Shown here in pieces: positions 8,145-46,985 of a stretch of DNA of 64,000 nucleotides. The notes beneath the pieces are model-generated. The model did no database searches, was not told the origin of the DNA, and saw only the letters and a list, made by a program, of their open reading frames with translations. Within the stretch, counting starts at the first letter, position 1; every line of letters begins with the position of its first letter. The DNA comes from Rhizoclosmatium globosum. Lineage: Eukaryota > Chytridiomycota > Chytridiomycetes > Chytridiales > Chytriomycetaceae. A program made the position numbers and the translations under genes. Where the stretch lies: NCBI GenBank assembly GCA_002104985.1, contig MCGO01000171.1, positions 17,529 through 81,528 on the forward strand. Direction: 5' to 3'.

Positions 8145-9737
8145 TTACAAAGCAGCACCAACAGTTTGCATCCAAGTACCAATTGGGTTGTCCAAGTTCA
8201 ATTGCCAACCCATGATTCCAGCATCCCAGCCCTTTCCTCTAGCCTGAGCAACACAAGTCGCTAACAAGCTTGGAGCCATGTAACCAGTGTTAGTCGCGCC
8301 AGCTGGAGTAATTGGCTTTCCAATAACAAGCTTGTTCAATGGAACACCCTGAGCCGCAATCTCGAACAAAGCCGTTCCGTTAAAGAAGCCAATCGACTTG
8401 TTCAAAAGCCCATCGCAGTCTGCGTAATCCGTGCTGCCTTGGTTGTAAAACTGCACGTTGTAGAAGTCAATCAAGTTTCCGACTTGCTGATCGACAGTGA
8501 GATAAGCGCCGTTCGGGTACTGCTTTGTGTTCTTGACAAAGTAGGGAGCTTGTGGGGCGTGTGAGATGATATACTGTGGCGAAGGAAGACGAAGACGAAG
8601 CTGAGTGGTGAACTTGATCAGCCAAGCCTCGCCAGTTCCGTTCTCCATCGCCGCGTTATCCTCCCAATCGATATCAGCACCGTCAAGAAGGTTCGCAACA
8701 ACATAGTCGGCAAGCTGGTTCGCAATGGCAACCGGGTCCGAACCAGTTGGCATGTCCGTGGCTCCAAATGCACTGACAATAAGCGCCTTTCCAGCATTGT
8801 GGAACGCGTTCACGTAAGTCTGCTTCGTGTTCACATCCAACTGGGTCCAGTAGTAAGCTGTATCGTAAGGCCCGTTACGCAACCAGAACGCAAGGTTGAA
8901 CACATTGTAAGCACCTGCGCTAGCTGGCGCGTATCCAGGAACACCAATCGAAGCCGGATAAGCTGCATCCTGCACGTACTGCGTGTTATCGTTATACACA
9001 ACCTTCTTAGGACCCGTGATTGGCTTGAATGGAATAGGCGTGACACTTGGCTTCACGACTCCAGTTGGCTGGGGAGGGGTAACACAGTTTCCAGAGGCGC
9101 CAGAGATCTGACAGACGGTGTTGGATGTGTTGCAGTTGAGAAGGACGCCCCAGAAGAGAGAGTTTCCAGTGTATGAACATTGGAGGAGCTGGTTGTTGGA
9201 GTCACAGGCGTATGCAGCGAATGCGGAACAGGAAGCGCCGGAGGATGGACCTGTGGATGATCCAGCTGTAGTGGTGGTTTGGACAACAACTGCACTGGTG
9301 GTGGTTTGGACCGGAGCAGCAGTTGTAGTTGTAGTAGTAGTGGTGGTGGTGGTGGTGGTAGAAGTGGTGGAGGATGTTGTAGTTTTCACAGGGGCTGCAG
9401 TAGTAGTTACGACCGCAGCAGCAGTAGTTGTAGTTGTAGTAGTAGTGGTAGTGGTAGTGGATGTCTTGGCAGCCGCAGCAGTAGTCGAAACAACAGTTCC
9501 ACAAGGTCCAAGAATAGTCCACTGCTTATAGTCACTTGGAGCTCCAGCATTTCCCGCAAGGTTGGGCGCCTGACTCGCAAGCGCGTCTACATACCAATTC
9601 GCTTTGTAATTCACATTGGCAACGCTAACTTGATCACCACCCTGATAGATCTTTGTCGAAGTGTATGCTGGTGCACAAGCAGTTTGAGCGTTGGCAAGGA
9701 GTGCAGAGAGGGAAGCAACAAGGAAGGCAAGCTGCAT
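8145..9737 (-). CDS. Secreted modular GH18 chitinase
   Basis: Single exon, 530 residues. The start is the ATG that opens a classical signal peptide (MQLAFLVASLSALLANA). Next comes a small CBM5/12-like chitin-binding module (about residues 20-85; YKANWYVDALASQAPN and YKQWTILGPC). A long Thr/Ser linker follows, then a Cys-rich CBM19-like module (about 175-225, six Cys), and the GH18 catalytic domain from about 250 to the end. The catalytic signature LDGADIDWED matches DxxDxDxE with the Glu acid present. The domain resembles class III/endochitinase-type fungal enzymes. It probably acts on chitin in the wall or in substrate exoskeletons. Two different binding modules on one short enzyme are notable but not unprecedented. 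Confidence 0.92.
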   Translation of the reverse strand: MQLAFLVASLSALLANAQTACAPAYTSTKIYQGGDQVSVANVNYKANWYVDALASQAPNLAGNAGAPSDYKQWTILGPCGTVVSTTAAAAKTSTTTTTTTTTTTTAAAVVTTTAAPVKTTTSSTTSTTTTTTTTTTTTTAAPVQTTTSAVVVQTTTTAGSSTGPSSGASCSAFAAYACDSNNQLLQCSYTGNSLFWGVLLNCNTSNTVCQISGASGNCVTPPQPTGVVKPSVTPIPFKPITGPKKVVYNDNTQYVQDAAYPASIGVPGYAPASAGAYNVFNLAFWLRNGPYDTAYYWTQLDVNTKQTYVNAFHNAGKALIVSAFGATDMPTGSDPVAIANQLADYVVANLLDGADIDWEDNAAMENGTGEAWLIKFTTQLRLRLPSPQYIISHAPQAPYFVKNTKQYPNGAYLTVDQQVGNLIDFYNVQFYNQGSTDYADCDGLLNKSIGFFNGTALFEIAAQGVPLNKLVIGKPITPAGATNTGYMAPSLLATCVAQARGKGWDAGIMGWQLNLDNPIGTWMQTVGAAL

Positions 9738-10884
9738 CGTGACGGACGTGATCTGAAGATAGTGGATAGGTTGGCATGGCTCATTTAAACTTGCTGTCTG
9801 CTTTCCCAGCACCTGCTGATCAGTCCATCTGACCAGTCACATGGAAGCGGTGCCTCCGCGACTAATCACGAAAAAATTGCCAAGGACAGATGAGTGCTGA
9901 TAGTGGATCGTCGATTCTTGTCTTAGACGTTACCAATAGCGTTGATATTGGTCGTCTGTTTCATGGATGAGAGCCATTAGTCACTCTGACTAGAAGTCGA
10001 CTTATCTAAGAAACGTCCCATCTTCTCTCTCTCTGTGAAGTAAAGTCTCACCACTGCTGTTCACATATGTTTATTCTGATATAACAATCAAAAATTGCCT
10101 CGGGCATTTTCGCTTTGTTGGACAAGGTGATTGTGTTGGTTGCAATGCAAAACGAAAAAACATCCTCCAAACATCACTTCCCTCGAATTCCTCAACTGTG
10201 CAGCTCCGCTCTCGTCCTGTATGACAGCGCAGACTGTACTGGTTATGCCTCCTTGTCACCTATCTCACTTCTGTGACAGAAAAGTGTCAACGTGCTTCTC
10301 CTTTCAATCATTCCCCCGATCTTTCTCTTCCCCTGTTGCGAACCACCATATGCATAAGATGAAATCTTGACAATTTGCACGTCAGTAATAGGAGCTACTA
10401 CTCCGTTGATTGTACAAAATATACCCAAGTTTCTGATTCATTTGGTAGCAACTTCCATTCCGTTTCCCTTCCCTGCTCTACTCTATACCCTCAATCAGCT
10501 TTACGATTTGACGGTACGGTTATGAGTCTCGCCTGTTTCCTAATAAAATAATTGGCAACACACATCCCTTTTTTCCTTTCAGGTCTCTGCCTCATCTCTC
10601 TTGGCCGATACACTAGCCGTCGATATTATTCCGTTTCTTCAAATCCTTATCGGTTTGAGTATTATCCTGCATATATCCGTTTTTCAAAAGTATAACTTTT
10701 TACTCTTGTCTAATTAGTTCGTTCCAAATAATAAAATAATAAGAAAAAAGATTGGGTCATGGGTTTTCTATGTAGTTGTTGGCCTTCTTGACAAATCGGT
10801 TTCCAACTGTACAACCCAATCACTGAGCATAACGCCACCCATGCATATCAATAAAAGAACCCTTATAAATAGTCATATTTAGTT
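9738..10884 (-). other. Intergenic region, 1.15 kb
   Basis: It contains the presumptive promoter of the chitinase (toward 9738) and the 3' region of the glycosyltransferase gene (toward 10884). Short open frames here have no recognisable protein character or splice logic. I see a CT-rich tract near 10020 and A/T-rich sequence near 10730, and nothing else that I can support. Confidence 0.5.
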
Positions 10885-40169: not shown

Positions 40170-41500
40170 TCAAGAGAACATCTTGGCATACATCTTTTTC
40201 TCCTTCTCAGCACGGTCCTTGATAGCCTTTTGTCCGACAGCCAACTCTCTGGCAATCAACTTGTCTTCTGGTGCAAGAGCAACAGCTTCAGTCAGGTCCT
40301 TGACAGCGTTTTCGTACTCCTTCAACGCGTTCTTGGCCTGTCCACGTCTGAACAAAGCCTTAGTTTTATCACTGGCCGAGACAGCAGCCTCCAATCCATC
40401 AGTACGACCCTTCAACTTCTGCTCAATAGCCAAAACCTTGGAGGTCTCCTTGACGGTCTGCGCCCACGCGTTCAACTTCAATCCACACATGGAAATGTTG
40501 AGCAAGCAAGACACCTTCAAGGAATAGTAGAGCTTCTTCTGCTCAATCGACAACTCGGCAATATCCTCAGGGTCAGGGTGCAATTCCATCAAGTATCGAA
40601 CCGCCTTCTCGTATTTAGCAGCTGCAGTTGCATAATCCTGCTTCTTGAAGTAGTCTGTTCCAATCTGCTTTACGGCACCAGCAATCGCAAGCAACTCATC
40701 AGGCTTCAAGCCGTCTGCAGATCCGTCAGCTGGCAACTGGTCCTCTGGGTATTCCTCGTACACATCTCCGTCGGCTGAGGCGGCAGCAATGGCAGCGGCT
40801 TCCTGCTTGGCGTCGTAGTCTCCACAGTCCGCAATGATCACGGGTTGGTATGGCTTGTCGTTGTCGTTGGTTTCAGTGTTTTCAATACGACGGACGACAC
40901 CCATTCCCTTGATGACACGACCAAACACAACGTGCTTTCCGTCCAAGTGTGGAGTGGCGACAGTGGTAATGAAGAACTGACTATAAAGCAAATAATCAGA
41001 TATCTTTCGAGGAAATAGCCAGAATTAACTTGATTGTACCTTCCGTTTGTGTTGGGTCCCGCATTTGCCATTGAAAGCAAACCAGCCTTTTCATGCTTCA
41101 CCTCAAAAGTCTCATCCTCAAACTTTTCACCGTAAATTGAGACACCTCCAGTTCCGTTGTGGTTGGTAAAGTCTGCAAGAAACAGGTCAGAAGCCAAGCA
41201 AACAACACTCCCAAAAAGCGCAAATAACCTCCTCCTTGAAGCATAAAGTTCTTGATCACTCGGTGGAATGAGCATCCCTTGTATGTCAGCTTAATTCCAT
41301 CCTCAGAGACAGTGTTTCCCTGGCACAGAACTCGGAAGTTCTTGGTTGTTCTTGGGGCAATGTCATCGTAAAGCTGCCAGAACCTTAGCGAAACAGTCAC
41401 TAAAAACCGACGCATTTACCTCCATAACAATCTTGCCCGCTGGGACATCTCCAATAGTGATGGAGAAGAAGACTTGTGGTCTCGTTGCTTCAGTGGCCAT
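40170..41500 (-). CDS. Cyclophilin-40 type peptidyl-prolyl isomerase
   Basis: Exons are 41500-41420, 41373-41229, 41172-41040 and 40980-40170 (389 residues). The cyclophilin domain (1-170) has [15 protein letters not shown] with the catalytic Arg, [17 protein letters not shown] and [12 protein letters not shown]. Trp121 of cyclophilin A is replaced by His, as usual in Cyp40, which lowers cyclosporin binding. A linker is followed by three TPR units (about 210-370) including [21 protein letters not shown] and [18 protein letters not shown] segments. These bind the C-terminal MEEVD of Hsp90. It acts as an Hsp90 co-chaperone in the cytosol. An adjacent ATG at 41503 is an alternative start. Confidence 0.94.
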
Positions 41501-42223: not shown

Positions 42224-43669
42224 ATGAGTTCGAAACGCCTTATTCTCTACCACACGAACTGGGCATGCTACGGCCGTAGCTTCCAAGTGAAAGACCTTCC
42301 CATTGATTATATTACCGATATCAACTACTCCTTCTTTGACCTGCGTGAGAAGGGAGGCTTCCTTGTGCCTACCTCCTCGGATCCTTGGGCTGATACAGAC
42401 AAGCGATACGGGCCTGGAGAAGGTGTTGCACCTGCGGATTCGGATGCTGATGGGTACTTTGGACAGTTTGGACAGTTTATGAAGTTGAAAAGGTGAGGCT
42501 TTGTTTCATGGACTCCTAATTACATTGAATCATCTGTTGAAATGTTATTCTAACACGAAGTATCAGGCAGGGTAAACGGTTCCGCTTTGGATTGAGTATT
42601 GGGGGTTGGACCTTCTCCAAACACTTTTCATCCTCAGTGCGAACACCAGAAGCGCGATCTGCCTTTCTTAATGAGATTATTGCGATTCTGTCAAAATATC
42701 CTGGTCTATTTGATCGCATTGACTTGTGAGTGGCGATGTGTCATGATACCCAACCTAACCAACTGACTCTATGATAACACCAGTGACTGGGAATACATTT
42801 CACCGGTCGGAAAGAACTTTGGAGACCCAGGAAACGAAACGCATCCTGAAGACGCCAACAACTTTTCCCTGCTCCTCCAACTTCTCCGTCAATGTCTTGA
42901 TTCCACAAACAACTCCAACATTGAATTGTCCGCGTGTGTTGTTGGAGACCCTGCTAAAATGGATGCACTTCCACTGGGTGCAATGTGTCAATATCTTGCC
43001 ACAATCAACATCATGACATACGATTTCGCTTCATCTGCGTGGGGTTCGTGTCTCGCAGGGCATCAGACGAACCTGAAATCAACTCCATACGCTCCATTGT
43101 CAATTGAGCGTGGCGTGGATTTCTTGATTGGAAAAGGGGTTCCGCCCTCAAAACTGATTATTGGTGTCGCCTACTATTCTCGCGCATTTGCAAACACGGC
43201 GGGATTGGGTCAACCTTCCTCGGGAAGTTCACCTGACAAGTCTTGGGAAGATGGGGTTGTAGATTATAAGGCCCTTCCTGTCGCAGGTGCAACGGAATAT
43301 TGGGATGACTTGGCAAAAGCTACATATTCGTATGATCCTGTAAAGCGCGTGTTGAGCTCTTATGACTCTGTGGAATCCGTTCGTGCAAAGTGCGCATATG
43401 TTCATGAAAAGGGGTTGGCAGGAATTATTGTTTGGGAGAGTAGTGCTGATTTCCCTATTTCGCATCCAAGGAGTTTGACTGCTGCTTTACATGCCGGTTT
43501 GATTGGAGCCAGCGCTGGTTCAGTTGGAGCGACAGGAGGACGTGAAGCTAATTCGACCACGGGAGGATTACAAAGCGTGAATGGCCACCCACAATTAGCT
43601 CCATGGTTGAGTGGAGGTCAGCAACAACAACCACAGTTCCAATCGAGCCAAAAAGCACCGTGGCTCTAG
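42224..43669 (+). CDS. GH18 chitinase-like protein without signal peptide
   Basis: Exons are 42224-42492, 42567-42725 and 42784-43669 (437 residues). It begins directly with the first beta-strand (KRLILYHTNWACYGRSF). The barrel motifs are all present: INYSFFDL, FGLSIGGWT, FDRIDFDWEY (DxxDxDxE with catalytic Glu), INIMTYDF, IGVAYYSR and GIIVWESSADF. This resembles the class V/bacterial-like ChiA-type subgroup. With no signal peptide it is either intracellular or exported by another route. The C-terminus is a Gly/Gln tail carrying APWL twice. Intron 2 interrupts the catalytic motif between DF and DWE. Confidence 0.9.
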
Positions 43670-43775: not shown

Positions 43776-46700
43776 ATGGCTGACGAGGAGAACAAGAAGC
43801 AGTTCCACATCTTCATGTGAGTAACCCAGTCCGAAGCTATCCATGCTATGCTAACAAGGTACATCGTAAGCTCGTACCGGGTCAACACAGATGCGGATCT
43901 GGCCGAGAAGCTGTGCGACAAGTTGCAGGCCTTGACAATCCTGAACGAACAAAGAGAAGTGCGGATCAAGTGCTTTTTAGACAAACAGAACCTGAAAGAA
44001 GGCGTGGACTACACGTCGCAGTTTATGACTGGTTTGTTGTAATTGGATTCGAAATGGTGTTGGTTCTTATGTCATAAAAATCAATTGGATGTAGCTCTGA
44101 CTGGATCCTGTTTGGTGCTTCCAATTGTTTCGGAAGCCTGTCTCAAGTCGATGCTGAATCTGCAGGCGGGCTGGACTGATAATGTGCTGAAGGAGTGGCA
44201 GACGGCTCTCCACTTCCAAAGTATGGACAAATTGACAATTATTCCTATCCTTGTTGGAGCAAATGAGGTTGTTGGTGGGAGCAAAGTGTATCGCAAGTTT
44301 GAAGGGTTCACAATGGTTGGCCAACTGCCAGGTACATATTTCCATCCAGCCACACAAATGCCACCCAATATTAATAACTGATTACCCTATTTTCTCCATA
44401 AGACCTCGTTCTCCCAGACGCAATTAATGACCACACTGTCAAACAAGTCATTGGAAACCTTTTCAAGCTACAAGGAATCTTCCTCAACCCCTTGGAACTC
44501 ACAGACAAACTGGCTGTCATCCAATCTCGATTCAGCTCTGAAGTTTGGCCTTCGTACCGTACCTTGTGGTCTAACGTCGCAGAGCTCGGTCCAGAGCCTC
44601 AACTCACCTGTGTCCAATGTCTCCAGCCATACACAGAAAGTTCAAACGGCGATGGCGCGTGTCGTTTCCACTTGACCGATGGTCCCATTCAAGAGTACGG
44701 CAGAACTTATGCCTGCTGCCAACTTAAAGACCCACTCCTCGGCTGCCACAGAAACAGACATAACCCAAAGCACCACAACAGGTTCAAGTACGGTTCATTC
44801 GTTAACTGGCGTGCAGGCATCATGTGGAACACACTCATGAGTAGAACACACGCTAAAATATCTGCTGATGATTACTCTGAGGAATACGCTGACGAAACTG
44901 CCTGGATTCGTGTCGGGGCAACAACCAGTAACGCTGGCAAAGATCAAAACAAGCTCATGATTGCAAGCGCGATCCCTTATGAATCGTGGTTCATGCTCTT
45001 TGAAAAGGAAGAACTCATCGGAGTTGACACTCGTCTCCCAGTATTTTCTCTCAAAGGCCAACGCGACGAGTATGCAATTGGACGTTGGATTGTTTCCGAC
45101 GAAGGCCATGAAGTCATTGGAATTAACATCGAATGCGGAACACGTACAAGCGTTTCCCCTTCCTCTGCCAAAGTCCACTTTGCATGGCCTGAAATCAATG
45201 ATTTTAATGGTCCCGAAGCAACTTTAATCGAATTCTGTAAATCTGCAGCTTTTGGCGAACGTCCGCTCCCAAAAGCCCTCCAAAACATCAAGAACCCCTA
45301 CAACCTCCCTACAACCCTCTTGCGAAAGGCGAACCTCTCCGTACATTCATCCCCCGTAAACCTGACTCGCTCCCCGCTTGGAAGTCTCCCGCCAGTCCCT
45401 TGAAAGTTAAAGTTGGAGAACAAACAATGCGTCATGACGCATACCGCAAGAAGGACTACCTCGGTTCGACCCTTAAAATTCTCAACACAAGTCAAGACCC
45501 CGTTTCAATCGTCGAGGGCCGCATTTACGCACGTCTTCGGAACCCAGGTCCTTTTGTTGTTCCTGAAACTGGGGATGAAGAAAAGGATGCAACGATTTTG
45601 ACGAACGAGTGGAAGCAGTTGGATGAAAAGTGTACATACTTTTCGATTGGGAATAATAACGGGCTTCCGACGAATAATTTGCCGATTCTCGTGCCTGCTG
45701 GTGGGTCGGTCACTATCGAAGCGTATGCGCATTTGATGTGTGATGCTTATTTGCCGGAAGGTGGACCGGACGGAGGTCGCAAGAACTATTCGTGGGTTGC
45801 GTTGACGGCGCAGTCTCCAGTCGTCATTGATGTTGAGTTGGAGGATGTAAAGGGAGAAGTGTTTGGAACATTGTTGGAGTTCTGTATGCCAAACATGTAT
45901 TTGAAGGAGCCCGAGAAGAATGCATTGTTTTCGTTACAATGTGATGATACAAGCACTGCGAACCGCGACTTCTACAACTTGAGCATACCTGTTGCATCAA
46001 AAGACTTTGAAAATTGCGATCCTGTTGTCAAGAGAGACTTATCGACTCTATTTCAATGTGAGTATTCGTCTTATATTCCTATATTTCGGTGCCTAATTTA
46101 TTTTACGACAATATTGTAGTCAGATCCGGTGGTGGCAGAGACATGCATGTAGCTACTTTGCGTCACGTTGTTCTCGAAGCTGAAAAACAACACGGTGACA
46201 AAAGTCACGATATTCTCGCTTCCTATGACGTTACGCCGCTGATTGGATACGGATACCCGTACAACGATTTCAACAGCCAAAATTTCCATTGGTACACGAC
46301 AGCCCTTGTTGACTTGAAGCGCCGTATTGTCGTTGGTTTGCGTGTCAAAGGTGTCAGCTATAGAATGACGACTGTTGGGTACTTTCCTTTCCCAGAATAC
46401 GGAGACGTCTTGCCTGTCGAGGGGGGCCAAGTGATGGAATCTGTTGACTCAATTGCATTGCTTGATGAACATGATCCAGTTGTGGCAGAGTGGAAGAAGG
46501 AGGAGAGTGAGTTGGAGGAAGTCAAGGGTCATCCTGAACCAGTCAAGCAAGAAAAGTTGCCAATTGACTTGCGTGTCAAGTTTGGTTCCTCCAGTGCTCT
46601 TGCTGTGGCTGGGGTTGCTGGTGGAGCAAGTATTGATGTCAAGGCTTTGGCTGAAGCGTTGGGTCCAGTTATCAAAGGAGAAATTGGGTTGGCAATTCCA

Positions 46701-46985
46701 GAGATTGTCAAGCAAGTCGAAGCGGCAGTTCAGCATCAATACAAGTCAGCCATTGATCAGTTGTTGGTCCGCATTCAGCAGTTGGAGGAGGAGAGAGACA
46801 ATGCACGTGAATATGTTGAGTTGAGACAGGCTGCTTTGGGTGAAGAAGTGAAGGATGTAGCACCAAAAGCTGCGCCCTTTGTTCCTGAGACTGGCGCGTC
46901 AAGCAGCAGCACCCGAGTGTCACACCATAGTGATGGCAAGAACAAGTTCTGGAGCCGCCTCTTTGGATCCCTTTCTGAGAATTGA
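43776..46985 (+). CDS. TIR-domain protein with CHORD-like zinc module
   Basis: Exons are 43776-43816, 43871-44031, 44095-44331, 44403-45340, 45385-46057 and 46120-46985 (971 residues). TIR domain at about residues 8-175: FHIFISYRVNTDADLAEKL, IKCFLDKQNLKEGVDY, CLVLPIVSEACL, VLKEWQTAL (candidate catalytic Glu101) and LTIIPILVG. Residues 216-266 have C-x2-C-x13-C-x2-H-x14-CC-x8-C-x4-H, the ligand order and spacing of a CHORD zinc module. Beta-rich segments (about 440-640) and a conserved-looking region follow. Near the C-terminus is a coiled coil (AIDQLLVRIQQLEEERDNAR) and a Ser-rich, basic tail. The 44-base intron at 45341-45384 is inferred only from a frame change; a frameshift is the alternative. 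No signal peptide. I infer a cytosolic signalling protein. Confidence 0.8.

Follow-up and report, generated by a model that had tools for sequence, protein, structure and literature searches.

Does the TIR gene at this locus of the chytrid fungus Rhizoclosmatium globosum encode a parallel to the RAR1 co-chaperone system, as suggested by a sequence-only reading that placed a CHORD-like zinc module beside the TIR domain, or does the module serve another end? The question is considered here for a window of 64,000 nucleotides, which is part of contig C81, within a searched genome of 56.9 Mb in 420 contigs. The answer depends on whether the gene is real, on what kind of TIR it encodes, on how closely its zinc module is related to CHORD and on whether the residues by which CHORDs touch Hsp90 have been kept.

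Gene structure and the two gene copies

The interval proposed by the sequence-only reading (43776..46985) holds a real gene with the features described for it (Table 1). Spliced translation gives a protein of ~970 residues interrupted by four introns, the exons being 43776-43816, 43871-44031, 44095-44331, 44403-~45310, ~45400-46057 and 46120-46985. A second copy on contig C290 is 97.8% identical in DNA over 4,108 columns, and comparison of the copies in frame-checked blocks reveals 42 silent and 4 replacing codons among 927, which supports a real gene in that frame. Each copy has one break of its open frame; that of the window copy lies where C290 is open, and that of C290 lies elsewhere, near window position 46420. 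Both breaks are taken as sequence errors or allelic defects. A real fifth intron near 45341 was ruled out, since the C290 copy is open through this stretch and the alignment of the relatives runs across it. The 971-aa translation used here bridges the break by a pseudo-intron of 44 bases, and its residues ~452-462 are not real. It matches the deposited protein of the other copy (P0144, 463 aa) to residue 451 with one difference; as P0144 ends soon past the site where the frame of the window copy breaks, the latter half of the gene is missing from the deposited model. About 16 kb from the TIR gene, the window has a further stretch that matches C290 (100%) and C199 (97%), and judged by these shared stretches the contigs seem to be alternative versions of the same region.

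Table 1. Features of the TIR/zinc-module gene, in window positions
Feature	Position	Strand	Basis or remark
Whole gene, start to stop codon	43776..46985	+	Spliced translation; introns 43817-43870, 44032-44094, 44332-44402, 46058-46119
TIR domain, residues ~9-165	43800..44458	+	Over exons 1-4
Glu101 codon, putative NADase catalytic glutamate	44193..44195	+	E in 23/23 relatives; aligned with Cat1 TIR
Helical linker, residues ~166-214, with conserved LFKLQGIFLNP	44459..44605	+	Helices 171-179 and 192-213 in P0001 model; alignment A1
CHORD-like zinc module, residues 216-272	44609..44779	+	Alignments A1 and A4; CHORD profile comparison with shuffles; Pfam and PDB profile searches
Beta-rich domain 1, residues ~285-440	44816..45283	+	No solved fold recognised
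Single open-frame break of the window copy	45300..45410	+	Comparison of the two copies; contig C290 open here
Beta-rich segments 2 and 3, across intron 46058-46119	45409..46450	+	Strands of P0001 model, transferred through alignment A1
Predicted long helix, likely coiled coil, near the C-terminus	46635..46841	+	Helix 883-940 in P0001 model, via alignment A1

Directly upstream of the gene lies a GH18 chitinase-like frame (42926-43669, + strand, E 4.7e-30), and a second such frame, below the cut-off, is found at 8145-9812 (- strand, E 2.4e-6). The window also encodes a cyclophilin-TPR protein of the CYP40 kind (40170-40991, - strand, E 1.9e-17). CYP40 is an Hsp90 co-chaperone; the closeness of this gene to the TIR gene is probably due to chance.

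The TIR domain

The motifs on which a TIR had been proposed (FHIFISYR, CFLDKQNLKEG and VLPIVSEACL) are all present, and the proposal is borne out by Pfam, where TIR_2 (PF13676) matches residues 12-123 over its cut-off (E=3.4e-10; 40.9 bits against 28) and the second TIR model, PF01582, falls slightly under its own (20.2 bits against 21.3). The N-terminal domain is predicted to adopt a TIR fold, and SARM1 is among the folds closest to the model. By phmmer, the TIR part matches no PDB sequence at E<=1, and the NCBIfam matches of the window protein all lie far under their cut-offs, the best being Retron_TIR_antiphage (22.9 bits against 600). The putative catalytic residue, Glu101, is Glu in 23/23 aligned relatives and corresponds, in the Cat1 TIR, to the first Glu of ELEQA, which we take to be the catalytic one of that domain. 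In SARM1/TIR-1 NADases the TIR is C-terminal, whereas here it is N-terminal, and the zinc module and beta segments stand in place of ARM/SAM; neither ARM nor tandem SAM domains are among the Pfam families listed for the window protein at E<=10. An immune-kind N-terminal TIR is common to the protein and to TIR-NLRs (plant TNLs and the TIR-NB-ARC genes of this genome); NB-ARC, NACHT or repeats are absent from the same list at E<=10.

Elsewhere in the genome, TIR_2 has 92 matches at E<=0.001, exons and duplicate contigs being counted apart, and six of the listed rows fall under Pfam's cut-off. NB-ARC has six matches, five of which directly adjoin a TIR_2 match, some of them being duplicate-contig copies. 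TIR-NB-ARC genes, which resemble TIR-NLR receptors, are found at L046 (C62), L047 (C92) and L048 (C59), and also on C146 and C31. In L046, a TIR, an NB-ARC (3.8e-6) and numerous TPRs lie in adjacent frames of one strand. At L049 (C190), L050 (C387) and L051 (C86) the TIR ends a long open frame, and L049 has on that strand a further open frame with similarity to leucine-rich repeats (2.4e-9). At L056 (C46:159000-168999) a TIR exon is followed by a same-strand frame with a match to the Nephrocystin-3 N-terminal family (2.1e-11). In the 14 TIR regions L046-L059, no complete ligand pattern of the zinc module was found in six frames, where introns could hide one.

Many animal TIRs are adaptors. The TIR of the window protein might accordingly be non-enzymatic and recruit other TIR proteins through contact between TIR domains, the zinc module and beta domains forming a scaffold, and the numerous TIR_2 matches, even if counted by exon and by duplicate contig, would supply many possible partners. 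This reading is nevertheless judged unlikely: SARM1 is among the closest folds, and the uniform retention of Glu101 counts against a pure adaptor, which would have less reason to keep a catalytic glutamate.

The zinc module and its relation to CHORD

Residues 216-266 read C-x2-C-x13-C-x2-H-x14-CC-x8-C-x4-H, the putative ligands being C216, C219, C233, H236, C251, C252, C261 and H266, plus H270 and H271. A loose form of the ligand pattern never arises when the protein is shuffled (0/20,000) and has a single occurrence in the six-frame reading of the window, at the module itself; no second match was found within the window protein, which has one module only. Twenty of 27 sequences have the whole family pattern C-x2-C-x13-C-x2-H-x(6-15)-CC-x(6-8)-C-x4-H; they include both copies of the R. 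globosum gene and are drawn from 12 of 15 genera, and each of these complete modules carries an extra x3-HH after the pattern (H-x3-HH). The C-x2-C of the window module was read directly and is invariant in alignment A4. Part or all of the module is missing from the other seven sequences: five of them (P0006, P0011, P0019, P0020 and P0023) keep CVQC and have lost later ligands, P0020 lacking the CC pair alone, while P0022 and P0146 have no CVQC. Skipped exons or faults of the gene models likely explain several of these incomplete modules.

The CHORD ligand spacing claimed earlier for residues 216-266 holds for C-x2-H, CC and GC-x4-H and fails at the first pair (C-x2-C) and at the CC-to-C gap (8). 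For comparison, 209 CHORD domains were collected by ligand pattern from the best-listed 120 of 756 proteins, which had been found with the genome's own CHORD protein as query and whose named members are mostly fungal. The module and CHORD (PF04968; RAR1, CHP1/morgana, melusin) have in common the eight ligands in the order C-C-C-H-CC-C-H, the GC-x4-H end and, in 20/20 modules and 139/209 CHORDs, x13 between the second and third Cys; H-x14-CC is found in 11/20 modules and 209/209 CHORDs. They differ in the first pair, which is C-x2-C in 20/20 modules and C-x4-C in CHORD (counts by construction, as both spacings belonged to the collection patterns), in the CC-to-C gap, which is x6-8 in 20/20 modules against x15 in 203/209 CHORDs, and in the extra H-x3-HH of the module.

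With the Pfam CHORD model, the window module scores 15.6 bits in the whole protein and 18.8 bits when cut out, and so misses the gathering cut-off of 24.6. Alignment of module and CHORD profiles by hhalign gives a probability of 96.7 and a score of 50.9-51.4 over 51 columns. In 100 ligand-fixed shuffles, in which the ten Cys/His columns were kept, the score averages 13.8 (sd 4.5, maximum 32.3) and the probability 5.2 (maximum 86.4, in one shuffle), and in 100 shuffles of all columns the score reaches 21.9 at most. A score of 51.4 against a shuffle maximum of 32.3 indicates that the likeness to CHORD exceeds ligand spacing. A profile of 16 modules run against 177,635 distinct PDB sequences finds first 2yrt (CHORD of CHP1, E 0.0011) and then 2xcm (RAR1, E 0.01), the next match having E 0.81. 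Taken singly against Pfam at E<=1, the modules match CHORD in 9/16 cases (best E 0.0019) and, weakly, zf-LYAR in 4/16 (best E 0.0062), with no third family. The expected profile match of the Cys/His region to CHORD has thus been obtained in part: similarity beyond the ligands is found and the top PDB matches are CHORDs, but the Pfam cut-off is missed. In both structure models, built from alignments of 20 and 23 rows, the module lies mostly at pLDDT 38-50, its first part reaching 63, so that neither model gives its fold with confidence.

The module might instead be a Rex3/REXO1-type, LYAR-type or convergent independent zinc fold with no close tie to CHORD co-chaperones. Such an origin would suit the C-x2-C (itself in the collection pattern) and the shorter CC-to-C gap, both unlike the compared CHORDs, as well as the weak LYAR matches and the low-confidence model of the module, yet it is improbable in view of the contrast with the ligand-fixed shuffles, of the excess of CHORD over LYAR matches and of the two leading PDB matches, both CHORDs. 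The comparisons rather support the preferred reading, in which the Cys/His module is a divergent relative of CHORD, akin to it beyond the ligand spacing.

A viral origin of the module was rejected, as 197 pattern matches in viral contigs contain no relative. A bacterial origin was likewise rejected: nine pattern matches in genome contigs gave one relative, a 39-residue Chloroflexi stretch (L060), which was dismissed since the ligand pattern is missing from all five ORFs listed in its surroundings.

Loss of the Hsp90-contact residues

As described in the structural report (PMC2935968), the RAR1 crystal structure has zinc one bound by C159, C164, C178 and H218 and zinc two by H181, C196, C197 and C213, and RAR1 His188 and Asp189, highly conserved in CHORDs, touch the nucleotide/magnesium site in Hsp90. 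The Hsp90-facing loop is nearly constant in the 209 CHORDs (Phe in 209, His in 207, Glu/Asp in 209, Lys in 209 and Trp in 199); in the 11 modules with a loop of equal length the same positions hold Phe 0, His 0, Glu 3, Lys 1 and Trp 0 times (Tyr 10). The contact His, at +7 in 207/209 CHORDs, occurs there in 0/11 of these modules, and a histidine anywhere in the loop before CC is found in 2/20 modules. With these residues lost, Hsp90 binding in the manner of RAR1 is not expected. Co-chaperones such as RAR1 and CHP1 moreover have tandem CHORDs or a CS domain, whereas the window protein has one such module only, and the Pfam families listed for it at E<=10 include no CS domain.

The parallel with RAR1 drawn by the sequence-only reading is not supported in view of these differences, to which the altered spacing, the extra H-x3-HH and the missed Pfam cut-off add, and the loss of the contact residues led to the rejection of RAR1-type Hsp90 docking as the favoured explanation. 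That a working CHORD should dock the TIR protein or TIR-NLR partners to Hsp90 and SGT1, in the way RAR1 serves plant NLRs, is very unlikely on this evidence, even though the module is related to CHORD and the same genome has SGT1 (SGS domain, three matches), a true CHORD gene (on two contigs) and the TIR-NB-ARC genes. The CHORD protein spliced from this genome matches the R. globosum protein P0024 without a difference over 333 residues. Judged from its residues, the module appears to be CHORD-related while not being expected to bind Hsp90 as RAR1 does.

Rex3/REXO1 nucleases, according to a published description (PMC12129344), also carry a lone CHORD domain, which there has no chaperone setting, so that kinship with CHORD is by itself no sign of Hsp90 or NLR chaperoning. 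By that description, Rex3/REXO1 (in fungi too) and the window protein each have one CHORD-type zinc module beside an enzyme domain; they are set apart by the partner, which is a DEDDh nuclease in the former and the TIR, a putative enzyme, in the latter. Three 1.2-kb stretches beside RNase_T matches (of 12 listed) show no Rex3-type CHORD module, and the sub-threshold CHORD loci L038, L041, L042 and L043 have no complete ligand pattern in six frames, where introns could hide one.

The rest of the chain

In agreement with the sequence-only reading, no Pfam family exceeds its cut-off in the other ~700 residues. The model of a relative (P0001) shows them as beta-rich and ending in a long helix, in line with the beta-rich segments and coiled coil noticed by that reading. 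Beta domain 1 finds no solved structure at Foldseek E<=0.001. A short basic-aromatic tail, for instance KKKGFWN or KNKFWSRLF, ends the window protein and P0005, P0009, P0012, P0014, P0016 and P0019, and is absent in others; it is possibly a membrane or partner contact.

Relatives and distribution

A total of 26 relatives was obtained when 5.8 billion proteins were searched twice, and 13 of the 23 from the first search align over >=90% of the query. The joining of TIR and zinc module in one chain is seen in the gene models of the relatives and in the deposited P0144. Twenty-five of the 26 come from 15 genera, including Rhizoclosmatium. Placement in Chytridiomycota was checked for Rhizoclosmatium (Chytridiales), Quaeritorhiza, Polychytrium, Blyttiomyces and Cladochytrium; the other ten genera are presumably chytrids, and the Siphonaria record is flagged unverified in its source. 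Spizellomyces, Batrachochytrium, Synchytrium and Gonapodya have CHORD proteins in the same database and gave no relative of the family in a weak search by shared words and similar length. The relatives are recorded in their sources as hypothetical, uncharacterized or TIR domain-containing proteins. Four of the 26, compared with PADLOC, have no match there at E<=0.01, and no description of a TIR joined to a CHORD-like module was found in the open-licence PMC literature.

One relative, P0146, is receptor-like and has no zinc module: a GCC2/GCC3 cysteine-rich part (PF07699) and an apparent membrane span precede a related TIR, whose extension LFRIQGVFVNP resembles the LFKLQGIFLNP of the family. 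In Chytriomyces sp. MP71, the gene numbers of P0005 and P0007 are close and the longest contig of both measures 45,969 bases, which suggests a tandem pair.

A possible mode of action

The reading of the whole chain as a TIR enzyme with a divergent CHORD-like two-zinc module, beta partner-binding segments and an assembly coiled coil is about evenly balanced between right and wrong. The protein, so far chytrid-only, would probably be intracellular. Its N-terminal TIR would most likely be an NAD-consuming signalling or cell-death enzyme, possibly with an immune role, kept inactive until the chains cluster. As a divergent CHORD relative, the zinc module may bind two zinc ions and serve the TIR as an element of protein interaction or of positioning, and not as an Hsp90 dock of the RAR1 kind. 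Sensing or binding of a partner may fall to the beta-rich segments, and the long helix at the C-terminus could join chains as a coiled coil and so control oligomer formation, whereby TIR domains can pack.

A wider scenario is rather doubtful: chytrids would have evolved their own TIR executor of cell death or immunity, in which a CHORD-derived module was captured beside the TIR and, having given up Hsp90 binding and acquired extra histidines, came to work as a metal-dependent switch or dock of the NADase, acting beside TIR-NB-ARC receptors in a TIR-rich genome.

Significance

TIR in NLRs of Chytridiomycota has already been reported, according to an earlier study (PMC9815663). In a 2026 preprint survey (PMC13142454), fungal TIRs are said to be almost absent, R. 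globosum alone having any and the STIR clan of InterPro holding none. For a fungus, the TIR repertoire of R. globosum is large, and the relatives in 15 chytrid genera indicate that fungal TIR proteins are more widespread than that survey found. The family described here, in which a TIR is paired with a module related to CHORD, a domain with a known part in the chaperoning of plant immunity, is conserved but unstudied. It offers a test case for a CHORD-like module that may act as a metal-dependent element outside Hsp90 complexes.
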